Part shown: positions 29,125-35,813 of the stretch, in pieces
Layout: every line of letters starts with the position of its first letter
Numbering within the stretch: the first letter of the stretch is position 1
Source: Haloferula rosea
GTDB taxonomy: Bacteria > Verrucomicrobiota > Verrucomicrobiia > Verrucomicrobiales > Akkermansiaceae
NCBI RefSeq assembly: GCF_016595525.1
Contig: NZ_JAENII010000006.1
Coordinates: forward strand, 124,001 to 188,000
Length of the DNA: 64,000 bases
Direction: 5' to 3'
Made by a program: the position numbers and the translations under genes
Notes under the pieces: model-generated
Database searches by the model: none
The model's input: only the letters and a program-made list of their open reading frames with translations
Told to the model about the DNA's origin: nothing

Positions 29125-32100
29125 TCATGCATCGAGCGGCTTGAGCAATTGGCCGAGGGTCTTGGCGTCGAGCTTGAGGCCGCTGGTTTCGTCGGACAGC
29201 AGGGCGTCCACGAGTTTGGCCTTGTGGGCCTGGAGTTCGAGGATGCGGTCTTCGATGCTGCCGGTGCAGATGAGCTTGTGGACGAAGACGGGCTTGGTCT
29301 GGCCGATGCGGTGGGCGCGGTCGGTCGCCTGGTTTTCGGCCGCAGGATTCCACCAGGGGTCGTAGTGGATGACGGTGTCGGCGGCGGTCAGGTTGAGGCC
29401 GGTGCCGCCGGCTTTGAGTGAGATGAGGAAGACCGGCGTCTCGCCCAGTTGGAACTTCTCGACGAGCGCTCCCCGGTTCTTGGATTGGCCGGTGAGCTTG
29501 AGGAAGGGGATGTGGGCTTTTTCCAGCTGCTCCTGAATGAGGGAGAGCATGGAAGTGAACTGGGAGAAGAGCAGGATGCGGCGACCTTCCTCGATGAGGG
29601 TGGGAAGGAGCTCGTCGGTCAGGAAGTCGAGTTTGGCGGAGTCGACCGTCTCGGTGGATCCTTTCAGCAGCTGTGGGTGGCAGCAGATCTGGCGGAGCTT
29701 CATCAGGGCATCGAGTGCGATGATGTGCGACTGGCCGACGCCCTTCTCGGAAATGGCTTCGCGCACGCGCTTGTCCATCGACGCGCGGACGGATTCGTAG
29801 AGCCGGGTCTGTGGCTTGTTGAGATCGACGTGGTGGATGGTCTCGGTCTTGGCCGGCAGCTCGCTGGCGACCTGATCCTTGGTGCGCCGCAGGATGAGTG
29901 GCCCGACACGCTGGTTGAGCACTTGCTGGATGTCCTTGGAGTGCTCGCTCTCGATCGGTCGGCGGAACTGGGTCTGGAAGGATTTTTCGGTGCCGAGAAA
30001 GCCGGGCATCAGGAAGTGCATCAGGCTCCAGAGTTCGCCGAGGTGGTTCTCCATCGGCGTGCCGGAAAGACAGATCCGCTGGGTGGCTTTCAGGTGGCAG
30101 GCGGAGCGGGCGTTGATCGATTTCGGGTTCTTGATGTGCTGGGCTTCATCGAGAACCACGACGTGCCAGTCGTGACTGACGAGCTCGTCGTGGTCCCGAC
30201 CCAGCAAGGGGTAGGAGGTCAGAACGAGATCCGCATCGGGGATGGCTTCGAAGTGCTTCCGGCGCTCAGGTCCCTGCAGGGTGAGAAGTTTGAGGTGGGG
30301 CACGAATTTGGCGGCTTCGGCCGACCAGTTGGGCACCACCGAGGATGGGGCGACGATGAGCGAGGGCCGACCGGGGCGCTTGGCGTGCTCGGCGGCGAGG
30401 TGGGTCAGGGTTTGCAGGGTCTTTCCGAGACCCATGTCGTCGGCGAGGATCCCGTGGAGTCCCTGCTCGGCGAGGAACTGCAGCCAGCGGAATCCGTCCT
30501 TCTGATAGTCGCGCAGCTCCGCCCTGACGGCGGCGGGAATTTCAATGGCGGGCAGTCCGTCGATGTCGCGCAAGCCGCGTCCCAACCGGGCAAGGGTGCG
30601 GCTGGTATCCGAATCGTCGATCTCTAACGCGTCCGCCATGTTGGCGGCGGCGAGTCGGTCGATCCGCAAGGCTCCACCGGTGGGCTTGCCGGAGAAAAGG
30701 TGCCGGACCTGATCGACGGTTTCCATCAACTGACGCGCGGGAAAGCGGATGAATCCTTCTTCGGGATTCTCGCAGGGAAGCAGGATGTGCTCGGGCAAGT
30801 CCGGGGAGTCGGCCGGCGGGTAATCCTGCTCGATGGCGCGGGCGATGAAGGGGATGAGGCTGAACTTTTGACCCTCGATCTCGTAAGAGATGTCGAAGCG
30901 GAACCAGTCGATGCCATGGCCGGTCTCGGCTTCGATGGCGGGGATGAATGACGACGCATCCCGCGCGCTGAGTCCGGCGCTGGGATCGATTTCGATGATC
31001 CATCCGTCCTCGCGAAGTCGCTGGAATTCCGGGCCATCGAGGAGTTGCAGCCACGCCATTTCGTGGCCTGCTTTCTGGTTGGCGGGGACGAAGGCGCTGG
31101 ATGAGGGTTCGAGTGGGACCAACGAGGCTCCTCGTAGTTCGGCCTCAGCGGTTCGCTCGGCCTTGAGACTGCGTGGCCAGATGACCCGAGTGCCGTCGAC
31201 CTGCCCGACGTGTTCCCGTGGGGCGCGGCTGGTGAGCATCGGCAGACGCGGGCTGTCTCCATACTGGAAGAGAAGTTCGCCGATGAACTGGTGGGTGCGC
31301 TCCCATGATGGCCCGCGGGCGACCCGCTTGATCTGGAGCACGGGAGTGGGCGTGACGGCGGGCCGGGTGACGGTCTCGATGGTTTTCGGCACCGGGAGTT
31401 GGGCACCGGGGAAGCGCGATAGCCGTTCGATGAGGGCGGGGATGTTGTCGGGCTTGATCACCGGGCTGCGCATCCAGGTCGCGAGCACGCTGGCGGGCAC
31501 GTTGCTTTTCACAGGGCCGAGCCATGCTTGTTTCGGGTCAAGGTAGCGGGCGGGCACCACCGGGAGCAGATCGATGCCGGCACGTCCGGTGCGGATCATC
31601 GGCCGGGCGCTACCATCCGGAAGGGTCTTCCAGTAGGCTTCCGCCTTTTCCAAGGGACCCGCGCTGAGTGGTTCATGGTCGGTGCTTCCCCGGTGATTAT
31701 TCGGTTCCTTGCCAAGGAAGAGGCGTCCGGTGGCGAGGGCGCCATCAAGCAGTTCGTCCCACTCGGATCCTTCGAGCGGCATCGCGCCGAAGGTCTGGTT
31801 GTCGAGTTGCCGTTTCGAGAACTGACGCACGAGTTCGATGTCCCCGTCGGCCATGCTGTCGGTGGGCTTGTCGGCGTCGATGGAGGCCACGCCGCTGAGG
31901 ATTTTCACCCGCCCGTTGCTGAGGCGCTTGGCCGTGCGAATCGCGAACTGGAAGGCGAACGCGTCAGTCTGCAGGGGTCGCTCGATGCAGTAGGCGAGGA
32001 AGTTCGAGGAGTCTCCGCCCGGCTTTGTGGCCTGCTTTTTCGGCGGGGTCGAGGGGTCGCGTGCCAGGGGGAGTTCATCCTGCACGAGGCGTGGTGTGGG

Positions 32101-32451
32101 GGTCTTCCCGGTGAGCTTGCTGAGGATCACCCGCAGGGTCGCGGCGGCGTGTTTGCATTCGTGGCTGACCGGGCAGGTGCAGTCGGATTCGACCATCCAG
32201 GCGCCACGCGACTCGCTGAAGAGATTCGTCGTCTGAACCCGCACTCCGCCGGGTGCCCCGACCAGCGAGGTGACGGTCAGCTCGCCGCTTCCGTCGAGAT
32301 CGATCCACTCGACATTCGTGACGCAGCCGTCCTTCGTGAAGTCGTGGGAACGAATCAGCGTGGCGAAGTCGAAGTGCTCCTCCCACGCACCCGACGTCAG
32401 CCACTCGAGGAGTGACGGTCGTTCGGCAATACGCTCGAGGGTTTCGTCCAT
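29125..32451 (-). CDS. SNF2/Swi2 helicase with SWIM zinc finger
   Basis: The start at 32451 (MDETLERIAERPSLLEW) follows the leuS stop by 74 bases; longer reading would run into leuS. Of 1108 residues, C91-T-C-P and C99-K-H101 form a SWIM zinc finger. The C-terminal 600 residues are a SNF2 motor: DDMGLGKTLQTLTHL (Walker A), VVLDEAQHIKN (DEAH type), and the second RecA lobe with DPWWNPAAENQATDRAHRIG. It belongs to the bacterial HepA/RapA-like remodeller group, acting on nucleic-acid-protein complexes with ATP. The target is unknown. It may be co-transcribed with leuS. Confidence 0.93.
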   Translation of the reverse strand: MDETLERIAERPSLLEWLTSGAWEEHFDFATLIRSHDFTKDGCVTNVEWIDLDGSGELTVTSLVGAPGGVRVQTTNLFSESRGAWMVESDCTCPVSHECKHAAATLRVILSKLTGKTPTPRLVQDELPLARDPSTPPKKQATKPGGDSSNFLAYCIERPLQTDAFAFQFAIRTAKRLSNGRVKILSGVASIDADKPTDSMADGDIELVRQFSKRQLDNQTFGAMPLEGSEWDELLDGALATGRLFLGKEPNNHRGSTDHEPLSAGPLEKAEAYWKTLPDGSARPMIRTGRAGIDLLPVVPARYLDPKQAWLGPVKSNVPASVLATWMRSPVIKPDNIPALIERLSRFPGAQLPVPKTIETVTRPAVTPTPVLQIKRVARGPSWERTHQFIGELLFQYGDSPRLPMLTSRAPREHVGQVDGTRVIWPRSLKAERTAEAELRGASLVPLEPSSSAFVPANQKAGHEMAWLQLLDGPEFQRLREDGWIIEIDPSAGLSARDASSFIPAIEAETGHGIDWFRFDISYEIEGQKFSLIPFIARAIEQDYPPADSPDLPEHILLPCENPEEGFIRFPARQLMETVDQVRHLFSGKPTGGALRIDRLAAANMADALEIDDSDTSRTLARLGRGLRDIDGLPAIEIPAAVRAELRDYQKDGFRWLQFLAEQGLHGILADDMGLGKTLQTLTHLAAEHAKRPGRPSLIVAPSSVVPNWSAEAAKFVPHLKLLTLQGPERRKHFEAIPDADLVLTSYPLLGRDHDELVSHDWHVVVLDEAQHIKNPKSINARSACHLKATQRICLSGTPMENHLGELWSLMHFLMPGFLGTEKSFQTQFRRPIESEHSKDIQQVLNQRVGPLILRRTKDQVASELPAKTETIHHVDLNKPQTRLYESVRASMDKRVREAISEKGVGQSHIIALDALMKLRQICCHPQLLKGSTETVDSAKLDFLTDELLPTLIEEGRRILLFSQFTSMLSLIQEQLEKAHIPFLKLTGQSKNRGALVEKFQLGETPVFLISLKAGGTGLNLTAADTVIHYDPWWNPAAENQATDRAHRIGQTKPVFVHKLICTGSIEDRILELQAHKAKLVDALLSDETSGLKLDAKTLGQLLKPLDA

Positions 32452-32525
32452 CGTTTCGTCAGGTCGACGCCGCGGCGGGGAAACCGACTCGCTCTGATCG
32501 GGCACCCGTGTGGCACCACGGTTTG

Positions 32526-35500
32526 TTAGTTCGCCACGATGTTCACGAGGCGTCCGGGGACGACGATGACCTTGCGGACCGTCTTGTCCTTGGTGAACTC
32601 CTGAACCTTGGCGGATGCCTGGGCGGCGGCTTCGATCTCGTCCTTGGGCGCGTCCTTGGCGACGGTGATCTTGTCGCGCAACTTCCCGTTCACCTGCACG
32701 ACCATCTCGATCTCGCTTTCGATCAGGGCATCTTCGTCCCACTCCGGCCACGGCTGGGTGGCGAGGGGAGCGAAGGCATCTTGCCTTCGGGTGTCGATGG
32801 TCGAAGGCTGGAAGCCTTCGCTCCCCTGGAGCCGCTCGTTGATTTCCTCAGTCAGATGCGGAGCGAAGGGATTGAGCACGGAAAGCAGCAGCTTGAATTC
32901 GTTCAGCGGCACCACCTCGGCGGCGGTGAAGGCATTGGTGCACACCATCATCTGCGAGATGGCCGTGTTGAAGGACATCTTGGCGATGTCCTCGGTCACC
33001 TTCTTGACGGTTTCGTGGACGACCTTGAGCAGGGCCTTGTCGGTGCAAGGGGTGTCTTGGAGCTTGGACGAAACCGTCCATTCGCCGGCCTGGTTCTGCT
33101 CCATGGCGACACGCCAGACGCGGGCGAGGAAGCGGGACACGCCTTCGACCCCTTTCATCTGCCATGGTTTCACCTCGGTCAGGGGGCCCATGAACATCTC
33201 GTAGAGGCGCAGGGCGTCGGCACCGTACTCGCGGACCACTTCGTCGGGGTTGACGACGTTGCCACGCGACTTGGACATCTTCTGGCCGTCTTCGCCGAGG
33301 ATGAGGCCTTGGTTGACCAGCTTCTGGAAGGGCTCGTTGGTGCTCAGGTGGCCGAGGTCGAAGAGGACCTTGTGCCAGAAACGGGCGTAGAGCAGGTGCA
33401 ACACGGCGTGCTCGGTGCCGCCGACGTAGAGGTCGACCATCGCGCCTTCCCCGCCGGACCAGTAATGCTCGGCCTCCTTCGAGATGAAGCGATCGGTGTT
33501 ACGAGGATCGCAGTAGCGGAGGTAGTACCAGCAGGAACCGGCCCACTGGGGCATGGTGTTGGTTTCGCGCTCCAGCTTGTCGCTGTAGTTGATCCAGTCG
33601 GTCGCCTTGACCAGCGGGCCACGCGGGTCGCCGGTCGGCTTGAAGTCCTCCATTTCCGGCTGCAGCAGCGGTAGCTCGTCTTCCGGCAGCGCCGAGTGCT
33701 CGCCGGTTTCCTTGTTCCACAGCAGGGGGAAAGGTTCGCCCCAGTAGCGCTGACGGGAGAACAACCAGTCGCGGAGCTTGTAGTTGATCTGACCGCTGCC
33801 TTTGCCGTTTTCCTCGAGCCAGGCGATCATCTTCGCCTTGGCTTCGGCGGTGGGCATGCCGTCGAGGAAGCCGGAGTTCACGGCGGTGCCAGTGCCGGAA
33901 AAGGGGAGCGTAGGCTTCCAGCCTTCGTGGCCACCCGCGCTTTCGAAGAAAGCGAATTCACCTTCCGTAAGCCGGGCCTTCTTCGGATTGGTGCGGATGT
34001 AGTCCGAGATGCGGGCGAAGTGCTTTTCACTGCGAACCAAGCGGTCGTAGTAGTCCTTCTGCCAGAAGGAGCCGCTGCCATCAGTCGCCTTGTTGATCGC
34101 ATTGGCGGTGAAGCTTTTCCATGAGTGTACGATTCCCTGCACCTCATGGCCTTCCGCTGGAGTGAAAAGCACGTGCACGTGATTTGGCATCACCGCCGCA
34201 GAGTGGAGATGATATCGATCGCCATCAAAATGCTTCAGGGCATCCAGCACGATTCCGCTGAGCTTCGGATCCCTGAGCAGGCATGCGCCGGCACCCGCAT
34301 CGAGCCATTCATCGACGCGATCAGAGAATTGCTGGTGATACTTGTGCTCGATCTCGTCAGACCAAGGTTCCGGGTGTTCTCGGAGGAAGGCTTCCCGTTC
34401 GGTGGTGAGTTGTGTTAGCTTTTCTTGGGGCAGACTGTCACCAGTGCGCCAAGTGACGAAGCATGCCGTTTCTCCCTGCGACCAGTGGGGGAGATTGATG
34501 ATTGTTTTGTGAGTATTGCCTTCACGATCGTAGTAGTTGGTCGAAGGCTGGAAGCCTTCGCTCCCCTCTTGGACGACCTGCAGGATGGGTAGCTCGAACT
34601 TGGTGGCGAATTCGAAGTCGCGTTCGTCGTGTGCGGGCACGGCCATGATGGCGCCGGTTCCGTAGCCCATCATGACGTAGTCGGCGATCCAGACGGGGAT
34701 CTTCTCGTTGTTTACCGGATTGATGGCGAAGGCGCCGGTGAAGATGCCGGTCTTGTCCTTGTTCAGGTCGCCGCGGTCCATGTCGGACTTGCTGGCGCAG
34801 GCCTTGATGTAGTCTTCGACCGCCTGCTTCTGTTCACCGGTGGTGATTTCCGCGACCAGCGGGTGCTCGGGAGCGAGCACCATGTAAGTGGCACCGAACA
34901 GCGTGTCGGGACGCGTGGTGAAGACGGAAAGGGGAGCGAAGGCATCCTGCCTTCGGGCCCCATCATTCGAAGGCTGGAAGCCTTCGCTCCCCTCTGCGAT
35001 CTCGAAGGTGACCTCAGCACCTTCCGAACGGCCGATCCAGTTCTTCTGCAGCAGCTTGATGCCTTCCGGCCAGTCGAGCGGGTCGAGGTCGTCGATCAGG
35101 CGCTGGGCGAACTTGGTGATGCGCAGCATCCACTGGCGCAGCGGTCGGCGCTCGACGGTATGGCCCTTGGATTTCCATTCCTCGACTTCCTCATTGGCCA
35201 GCACGGTGCCGAGATCGGGCGACCAGTTGACGGGTGCTTCGTGGATGAAGGCGAGGCGGACTTCATCGATCTGCTCGGGAGTCCAGCCCTTCGCTTCCAG
35301 CTCCGAAACGGGCGCGGCCTTCTGGGTCTCTTCGTTGAAATACGACTTGTAGAGCTGCAGGAAAATCCACTGGGTCCAGCGGACGTATTCCGGGTCGGTG
35401 GTGGCGACTTCGCGGTCCCAATCGTAGCCGAAGCCCAGCGACTTCAGCTGGCGCTTGAAGGTGACGATGTTCGCCTCGGTGGTGACGCGGGGGTGTTGGC

Positions 35501-35813
35501 CGGTCTTGATGGCATACTGCTCGGCGGGCAGGCCAAAGGAGTCCCATCCCATCGGGTGGAGGACGTTGAAGCCTTGGCGTGACTTGGTGCGACCGATGAT
35601 GTCGGTGGCGGTGTAGCCTTCCGGGTGGCCGACGTGGAGGCCGGAACCGGAGGGGTAGGGGAACATGTCGAGGACGAAGAACTTCGGCTTCGAGGCATCG
35701 AAGTCCGCATCACCCGGATTGGGTGCTCGGAAGGTCTTCTCTTCATCCCAGGTCTGCTGCCACTTGGGCTCGAACTGGTCGAAGGGGAATGGTTTGCGTC
35801 GTTCGTCGGACAT
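32526..35813 (-). CDS. leuS: Leucyl-tRNA synthetase carrying three in-frame inserts, one a whole RAYT
   Basis: One open frame of 1095 residues, against about 810-880 usual for bacterial LeuRS. The signature H60-V-G-H63, editing-domain [12 protein letters not shown] and PAHDERD (about 392-398), [13 protein letters not shown] and KMSKS (about 843-847) are all present, and the end [10 protein letters not shown] is normal. Three segments are foreign: residues about 274-295, 416-638 and 996-1017, falling between conserved blocks in loops. The two short ones are 64-bp palindromic elements; the long one is a REP-associated tyrosine transposase. Without them the protein is near 830 residues. LeuRS charges tRNA-Leu and edits mischarged tRNA. 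Whether this inflated protein is the sole, working LeuRS cannot be told from the window. Confidence 0.95.
32764..32827 (-). repeat. 64-bp double-hairpin palindromic element, copy A in leuS
   Basis: The element is bounded by 14-bp inverted repeats (aggggagcgaaggc and its complement). It contains two 19-nt hairpins with 8-bp stems and 3-nt loops: cgaaggcatcttgccttcg at 32771-32789 and cgaaggctggaagccttcg at 32802-32820. In leuS it codes for [20 protein letters not shown], inserted after INERLQ in the C-terminal part. No stop occurs in any of the six frames. Confidence 0.95.
33903..33927. repeat. REP-like inverted end of the RAYT insert, end 1
   Basis: Positions 33903-33927 read ggggagcgtaggcttccagc then cttcg. 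This is the reverse complement of 34542-34566 except for one base (t for a at 33911). It holds an imperfect hairpin (cgtaggct/agccttcg, loop tcc). Confidence 0.9.
34542..34566. repeat. REP-like inverted end of the RAYT insert, end 2
   Basis: The end contains the perfect hairpin cgaaggctggaagccttcg at 34542-34560, identical to the second hairpin of the two 64-bp elements, followed by ctcccc. Confidence 0.9.
34930..34993 (-). repeat. 64-bp double-hairpin palindromic element, copy C in leuS
   Basis: Same architecture as copy A, with hairpins at 34937-34955 (cgaaggcatcctgccttcg) and 34968-34986 (cgaaggctggaagccttcg) separated by 12 bases. It codes for [20 protein letters not shown], inserted before the editing-domain block TTRPDTLFG. 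The two copies differ in one loop base and most of the 12-base spacer, while the hairpin stems are identical. Confidence 0.95.

Follow-up and report, generated by a model that had tools for sequence, protein, structure and literature searches.

How a RAYT transposase comes to lie in frame within leucyl-tRNA synthetase (LeuRS), and whether it resides there as a mobile element or as a lasting part of the enzyme, is the question raised by a locus of Haloferula rosea. The DNA analysed, called the window below, is a stretch of 64,000 nt (GCF_016595525.1, contig NZ_JAENII010000006.1, positions 124,001-188,000). The available text of PMC8049555 describes RAYTs as domesticated free genes that are present in single copy, pass down vertically and make no copies of themselves. 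A preliminary description of the window had offered two readings of the locus, namely a mobile element landed harmlessly in a surface loop of the CP1 region or a domain that has become permanent. Genomes, contigs and loci are designated by G, C and L numbers, and genera and families by g and f numbers.

The leuS reading frame and its RAYT domain

The fused gene comprises the following features, given in window coordinates.

32526..35813, minus strand: leuS open reading frame with embedded RAYT, 1095 aa, HIGH-type (HVGH) and AVPAHD motifs present
33902..34567, minus strand: RAYT cassette, 666 nt, stop-free, replacing the linker P....DWQGYTDP of empty same-genus alleles
34173..34181, minus strand: RAYT-domain HUH motif, His-Val-His, invariant in both alignments (A1, A2), aligned to 4er8
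33999..34001, minus strand: presumed catalytic tyrosine, Y190 of the insert, in DYIRTNP, aligned to the DYIYINP tyrosine of 4er8

That a single open frame carries LeuRS blocks on either side of a RAYT segment, as proposed from the letters, is borne out by the LeuRS family model TIGR00396, which scores the 1095-aa product at 957 bits (cut-off 548.4) with matched stretches flanking the segment on both sides. Pfam places the LeuRS editing domain at residues 257-432 and Y1_Tnp at residues 534-608, and no splicing (Hint) domain is found among the Pfam matches of the fused protein at E ≤ 0.01. In the 24 fused LeuRSs examined, the first three LeuRS motifs are always present and AVPAHD is found in 23, the fused LeuRS of G199 having AVPGHD in its place. 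A second leuS, which the preliminary description had suggested seeking, was not found in the 97.5% complete genome: one leuS was found, and the other TIGR00396 matches fall below the cut-off. The insertion site belongs to the CP1 editing domain and corresponds, in an alignment with Thermus thermophilus LeuRS, to a linker at the end of that domain (residues ~364-377). Placement of the RAYT domain from a model of the whole fusion was rejected since this model is too poor, with low confidence over most of the catalytic and editing parts (mean pLDDT 59.7).

The identification of the 222-codon segment as a RAYT stands, with 38.2 bits on Pfam Y1_Tnp (cut-off 23), intact HUH and tyrosine motifs, and a TnpAREP as top fold match. 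The model of the RAYT domain, based on 63 sequences, has a mean pLDDT of 91.4 and a pTM of 0.84; its best PDB match is 4er8, TnpAREP with a REP hairpin (E 6.2e-7), and the sequence match of the insert to 4er8 (E 0.00099) aligns the HUH histidines and the DYI..NP tyrosine. On NF047646 (REP_Tyr_transpos), residues 517-617 of the fused ORF score 67.4 bits and the insert alone 70.9 bits, both short of the curated cut-off of 80; of eight other embedded RAYTs, those in IspG, AlaRS and HsdR reach 80.7-84.5 and five remain below 80. HUH and tyrosine are invariant in 63 aligned rows, and a motif search in related domains finds HUH in 88/88 and the tyrosine in 86/88, the exceptions being L088, whose domain is cut by a contig end, and L158, an IspG-borne RAYT that has lost it. 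At L158 (G187) the tyrosine position reads DDVLDNP, and this RAYT is apparently dead yet in frame.

The segment was also said to lack a start and a stop of its own, which holds: the 45 codons preceding the domain core contain no ATG, GTG or TTG, and the segment is stop-free. Its proposed limits, 33902-34567, are right for the DNA element, whereas the in-frame codons occupy 33903-34568, one base off. In other LeuRS-borne RAYTs internal starts are possible, because GTG or TTG lies upstream of many: a start codon of any kind (ATG, GTG or TTG) precedes the domain in 24/28 LeuRS-RAYTs and ATG in 4/28, the values for free RAYTs being 15/16 and 13/16, respectively.

Some neighbouring observations may be recorded here. 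The genome of the window (G000) has three free RAYTs (L001, L002 and L007), which belong to lineages other than the LeuRS-borne one. The adjacent ORF at 29125-32751 (minus strand), which from its motifs we take to be a SNF2-type helicase, has a listed start region overlapping the end of leuS. In the unfused LeuRSs of the order, L281 (G012) and L114 (G245) show an insertion of ~60 residues directly before KMSKS.

REP arms and RAYT-less REP pairs

Four further features of the window, which the preliminary description does not mention, concern the ends of the cassette and related palindromes elsewhere in leuS.

34542..34567, minus strand: left REP arm, AGGGGAG plus 8-bp hairpin, DNA fold -8.4 kcal/mol, z -3.3, read as GSEGFQPS
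33902..33927, plus strand: inverted right REP arm, differing from the left arm by one mismatch, DNA fold -5.0 kcal/mol, z -1.6, read as HEGWKPTLP
34930..34993, minus strand: RAYT-less REP pair (REP, 12 nt, inverted REP), 64 nt, in frame in the editing domain, fold -28.8, z -7.6
32764..32827, minus strand: second RAYT-less REP pair, 64 nt, in frame near the LeuRS C-terminus, fold -26.5, z -9.0

The cassette has the inverted flanking REP hairpins that characterize RAYTs, the right arm being a weak hairpin for which 15 of 200 shuffles are as good. Chance palindromes are rejected as an explanation, with six half-sites in the window and none in any of 100 shuffles. A high-copy spread of REPs is likewise rejected, as the whole genome holds just eight half-sites at ≤3 mismatches, six of them inside leuS; the other two sit at two contig ends sharing a 22-nt overlap and resemble a single intergenic REP pair divided between these ends. 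No GTAG-type tetranucleotide is present at the REP foot, the arms of the window consisting of AGGGGAG and a hairpin. The 26-nt arm of the window is stop-free in all six frames, but frame neutrality was rejected as a general rule of such REPs since it holds for 12/21 left arms. In the five same-genus genomes compared, both leuS REP pairs and the RAYT are absent.

Beyond the window, inverted arms of 24-32 nt bound 21 of the 22 LeuRS inserts measured, left and right arms being identical in 5/21 and arms differing between genomes; the fused insert of G074 has none. This measurement missed six fused loci because of the motif used, and the incomplete genes L088, L089 and G259 were excluded. Among the matches listed, arm type tracks RAYT clade, with G140/G145/G221 mostly on one side and G171/G045/G203/G127/G199 on the other (with single exceptions in G171 and in G199), and copies of the arms occur in 14/20 genomes, 2-25 in each, the reversed-pattern control giving 0. 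In G203, again among the matches listed and at the pattern used, the arm type is limited to its two leuS copies. Tandem arrays of REP arms, in steps of 30 and 87 bases, are seen at G151:C196:7142-7314 and G199:C3:3143-3426, and repeated REP-like peptides (GGTPTLLE and RSKAVPALS types) are piled beside the RAYT inside the LeuRSs L090 (G199) and L092 (G277).

Recurrence, probable exchange and probable selection at the leuS site

With the fused protein as query, a RAYT at the same leuS site is found in at least 31 of the 386 genomes of the order, in four families and 10 genera, a lower bound because 91/386 genomes have no match at the threshold and because the count, of matches running through or into the RAYT region, was taken among the matches listed. 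Recurrence elsewhere does not figure in the preliminary description. Many of these genomes are fragmented drafts, and the fused leuS of G259 is split over two contigs. Carriers number, as minima, 1 in g1, 3 in g8, 2 in g10, 2 in g11 and 16 in g13 (family f1), 2 in g17 (f2), 1 in g18 and 2 in g25 (f3), and 1 each in g39 and g45 (f4). The comparison of leuS among relatives, proposed beforehand for presence or absence of the insert, finds the same-genus relatives empty: among the matches listed, 16 same-genus genomes have a LeuRS match and that of the window alone is fused. A sample of 387 genomes of the phylum at E ≤ 1e-230, a threshold too strict for weaker fusions, yields nine matches, all in family f1, and no fusion outside the order.

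That the fusion is an artefact of assembly or binning is hardly credible. The genomes are drafts, many of them MAGs by title, and two contig ends of the window's own genome fall in a REP pair; against this, the frame is open throughout, the RAYTs at the site in at least 31 genomes differ in their insert DNA, and RAYTs in hosts other than leuS also occur in records not titled MAG (Chloroflexales bacterium ZM16-3 and Pontiellaceae bacterium B12227).

Twenty-five inserts, two of which are cut on the right by a contig end, start after ..VV or similar in the loop following AVPAHDERD, and their visible right ends run into ..VNSGF or similar; for five further inserts, the left junction is visible in four and the right junction in five. 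The linker W.G[YF] is found in 28/43 unfused alleles and, left of the insert, in 0/30 fused ones; the remaining 15/43 unfused alleles mostly have other linkers, or else scars. A single REP-like arm is retained at the leuS site of G034 and G020, and G142 is scar-like by peptide only. The f2 carrier G270 seems to have kept, to the left and right of its insert, linker residues resembling those of G256, an empty allele of f2, and this suggests a plain insertion with its own origin in that genome; the pair of g17 carriers in f2 looks like a separate insertion. An unrelated stretch of ~60 residues, with no RAYT, occupies the same linker site in L099 (G101).

The history of host and insert can be compared through trees. 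In the LeuRS tree (52 rows, insert excluded, quick method), species group mostly by genus, the exceptions being G101 (g1) among g13 and G262 (f3) among f4, and fused and empty rows are intermixed with at least 12 changes forced. Acquisition of the whole leuS from another genus is not supported, the nearest LeuRS to that of the window being the empty one of G093, in the same genus, at 90% identity. In the tree of 88 RAYT domains (L059 dropped as too short), host-gene labels cluster, with 18 changes vs 53.2 in shuffled labels (0/200 as low), and IspG-borne (9/9) and AlaRS-borne (4/4) domains each form one clade. A larger tree of 158 domains with named records, where AlaRS is left out and at least two records are doubled (L193/L145 and L191/L086), gives 36 changes vs 95.8. 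Constraining 27/30 LeuRS-RAYTs to one clade improves on the likelihood of the unconstrained search (lnL +15.1); the three excluded rows (g17, g25) were chosen once the tree had been seen. A single clade for all 30 lowers lnL by 47 units without being rejected (p 0.061). Within the LeuRS-RAYTs, grouping by host is rejected both for genus g13 (AU p 1.5e-6) and for family f1 (AU p 1.8e-4). The fit of the 27-member clade and the rejection of host clades suggest that the RAYT moved between genera and families at the leuS locus, and the whole is read as spread between species at one leuS locus, with losses.

The competing account, in which RAYTs transposed repeatedly and independently into a leuS hot spot with no transfer of alleles, deserves some, if limited, credence. 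It would agree with arms that, for several carriers, have matching copies dispersed over their own genome, with a free tree in which the LeuRS label needs at least three changes, with the two g17 carriers of f2 whose RAYTs fall apart from the rest, and with the linker residues of G270, preserved as a plain insertion would leave them. It sits poorly with the better likelihood of the 27-member clade, with the W.G[YF] linker missing left of the insert in all 30 fused alleles compared, and with the G203 arm type, which at the pattern used and among the matches listed is confined to leuS. A minimum of three origins, as read from the free tree, was dropped as a firm claim given the better tree with 27 held together.

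Exchange at the site is most visible in the pair G140/G203, in which near-identical LeuRS hosts (dN 0.01, dS 0.31) carry different RAYTs (dN 0.52) in inserts that start at the same position. A wide tract of co-conversion was not seen between the two; next to the insert, identity drops only slightly, and the G203 gene is partial. Selection on the insert can be gauged roughly, as dS is mostly 1-2.5: RAYT dN/dS is 0.05-0.19 in 12/20 pairs with computable dS, 8/20 being saturated, and LeuRS dN/dS is 0.03-0.20 in 11 pairs. The low RAYT values speak against a dead passenger, and the cassette seems to be kept under purifying selection.

Two other explanations bear on these data. That the RAYT is a neutral remnant, an old insertion tolerated in a permissive loop and no longer mobile, is distinctly improbable. 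The linker of T. thermophilus LeuRS to which the site aligns may indeed be tolerant, and one embedded RAYT lacks its tyrosine; however, dN/dS is well below 1 even if rough, HUH is kept in all 88 rows, arms are alike within genomes and unlike between them, and the leuS REP pairs are missing from the five same-genus genomes. That LeuRS has taken in the RAYT for good as a functional domain, for instance to sense single-stranded DNA or to regulate leuS, appears improbable. Purifying selection of the same order as on LeuRS, intact catalytic motifs and a common site in at least 31 genomes are in its favour, whereas the distribution is patchy (one fused among the 16 same-genus genomes with a LeuRS match, among the matches listed), near-identical hosts such as G140 and G203 have different RAYTs, and the same domain type occurs in unrelated proteins. 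Because a RAYT is found in at least 31/386 genomes, and because the LeuRS tree mingles alleles with and without it, the second of the two initial readings, a permanent part of LeuRS, is unsupported; the first, a mobile element in a harmless CP1 loop, gains support, in the form of a mobile cassette in a permissive loop, from inverted REP ends, empty same-genus relatives and cassette swaps.

The locus is probably a translation-integrated REP/RAYT element that behaves like an intein without splicing. The cassette consists of a REP, the RAYT domain and an inverted REP; as it has no start or stop of its own, ribosomes would read LeuRS, RAYT and LeuRS as one chain, and each round of LeuRS synthesis would also yield the RAYT, as a side domain on the CP1 loop. 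Both enzymes are presumably active; the frame, the arms, the HUH and tyrosine motifs, the LeuRS motifs and the single leuS are seen in the sequence. The RAYT would be expected to nick its own REP hairpins in single-stranded DNA and so to move either the cassette or RAYT-less REP pairs. Between species, the pattern is that of a cassette spreading as a leuS allele and entering one site, possibly by recombination or by homing through the conserved LeuRS flanks. It would replace the short linker, could be swapped for another RAYT and could be lost, sometimes leaving a REP scar, and such scars may be landing pads. Since insertions that break a vital gene die, survivors would be those in frame in permissive loops. 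The outcome would be a mobile element that finds shelter in an essential protein and is expressed along with it, with the population behaviour of an intein and no protein splicing.

RAYTs in other host proteins and relation to known elements

The preliminary description had taken RAYTs to be normally single-copy free genes, a view that does not fit these genomes. In the 31 fused genomes, 63/114 RAYT matches lie in open frames of at least 700 aa, and 34/83 still do so when the 31 leuS matches used to choose the genomes are excluded. An open frame alone is no proof of a host gene, and hosts were checked by family scans. Among the loci retrieved from these and further genomes of the order, hosts labelled by motif are MetH (11), IspG (9), CarB (4), AlaRS (4), HsdR (3), an adenosine-deaminase protein (2) and a glycosyltransferase (2). 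In scans of one example each, CarB, MetH, IspG, AlaRS and HsdR exceed an NCBIfam cut-off, and the adenosine deaminase, the glycosyltransferase and an eighth, TPR-like protein give matches below theirs.

Among named records, 41 of 80 RAYT loci (the best 80 of at least 424, ranked by likeness to LeuRS-borne RAYTs) lie in frames of at least 468 aa. Seventeen of the 41 were scanned, and a host family was recognized in 17/17 and Y1_Tnp in 15/17. The hosts are Eco57I-type methylases, type I restriction R subunits, ValRS-type and AlaRS-type synthetases, a polyA-polymerase-head protein, the exonuclease VII large subunit, MmeI-type, SNF2 and UxaC proteins, and others, in records titled Verrucomicrobia, Planctomycetota, Chloroflexales, Chlorobiaceae, Methylomirabilis, Methylobacter and others.

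Two sets of embedded RAYTs appear to recur at shared sites. RAYTs lie in frame in apparent Eco57I-type methylases, between MVDESL..YLK and LFSY or similar, at L199, L230, L233, L241 and L255 (record titles Chloroflexales, Ignavibacteriales, Terrimicrobiaceae, Bacteroidota and Verrucomicrobiota; Pfam-confirmed for L199 only). Others, at L190, L193, L196, L197, L145 and L146, occupy apparently one site of HsdR-type proteins, in records titled Methylomirabilis, Verrucomicrobia, Chlorobiaceae and Flavobacteriales; in the larger tree these RAYTs group as a single, weakly supported clade (46), and L193 and L145 are apparently one record seen twice.

From these sequences, a wider class of protein-resident mobile elements can be put forward tentatively, at somewhat less than even confidence. 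Start-less, stop-free REP/RAYT cassettes would persist as domains of essential enzymes (LeuRS, AlaRS, ValRS, MetH, IspG, CarB and others) in several phyla; each locus would have its own lineage homing horizontally into empty alleles, REP scars would serve as landing pads for re-invasion, and the HUH nuclease would act as a homing endonuclease with no splicing.

Inteins and homing endonucleases lie in frame in conserved enzymes as locus-specific lineages with patchy, horizontal distributions. The cassette resembles them in lying in frame in a conserved enzyme and in its patchy distribution, and it may also form a locus-specific lineage that spreads horizontally. It differs from inteins in that its host has no splicing domain among its Pfam matches and the insert is not expected to leave the protein, and from homing endonucleases in having an HUH nuclease in their place. 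With RAYT/TnpAREP and its flanking REPs (REPtron) and with REPINs, it shares the HUH/Y1 domain whose best fold match is 4er8 and the inverted REP hairpins on both sides, the RAYT-less REP pairs in leuS being also REPIN-like. The REP foot is AGGGGAG instead of GTAG and, compared with the description available from PMC8049555, the cassette is read as part of LeuRS, not as a free gene, and appears horizontal at one locus. Neither free standing nor vertical descent applies to it, as it is in frame in leuS and clades by host genus and host family are rejected.

Palindromic repeats in frame inside protein genes are documented, in the accessible part of PMC3733652, for Rickettsia palindromic elements (RPEs) and intragenic REPs, which are short repeats. 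The pairs at 34930-34993 and 32764-32827 are comparable to RPEs, being short palindromes in frame in a coding gene, but here the transposase itself is inside the protein. The same text mentions TIRtrons, transposase genes flanked by long TIRs with the motif GGGGWSAS; the arm letters GGGGAGCG fit 7/8 letters of this motif as given there, whereas the arms of the cassette are hairpins that differ from genome to genome. Long TnpAY1 'gene fusions' are mentioned, and discarded, in a survey known here in part (PMC6006769), and these may include cases like the LeuRS-RAYT. No description of a RAYT embedded in a host protein was found in searches of an open-access library of papers. As far as the available portions of PMC3733652 and PMC8049555 go, RAYTs, REPs, REPINs and coding palindromes are known parts, and what appears new is the RAYT as a domain of an essential enzyme.

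The finding links REP/RAYT elements with inteins and with coding palindromes of the Rickettsia type, and points to natural permissive insertion sites in many enzymes. An entire mode of life may escape surveys that drop long fusions, as that of PMC6006769 does in the part available. What RAYTs do and whether they move become testable questions where filled alleles can be paired with empty ones, and RAYTs now look like mobile alleles inside vital proteins, where the host gene would constrain their deletion and silencing.
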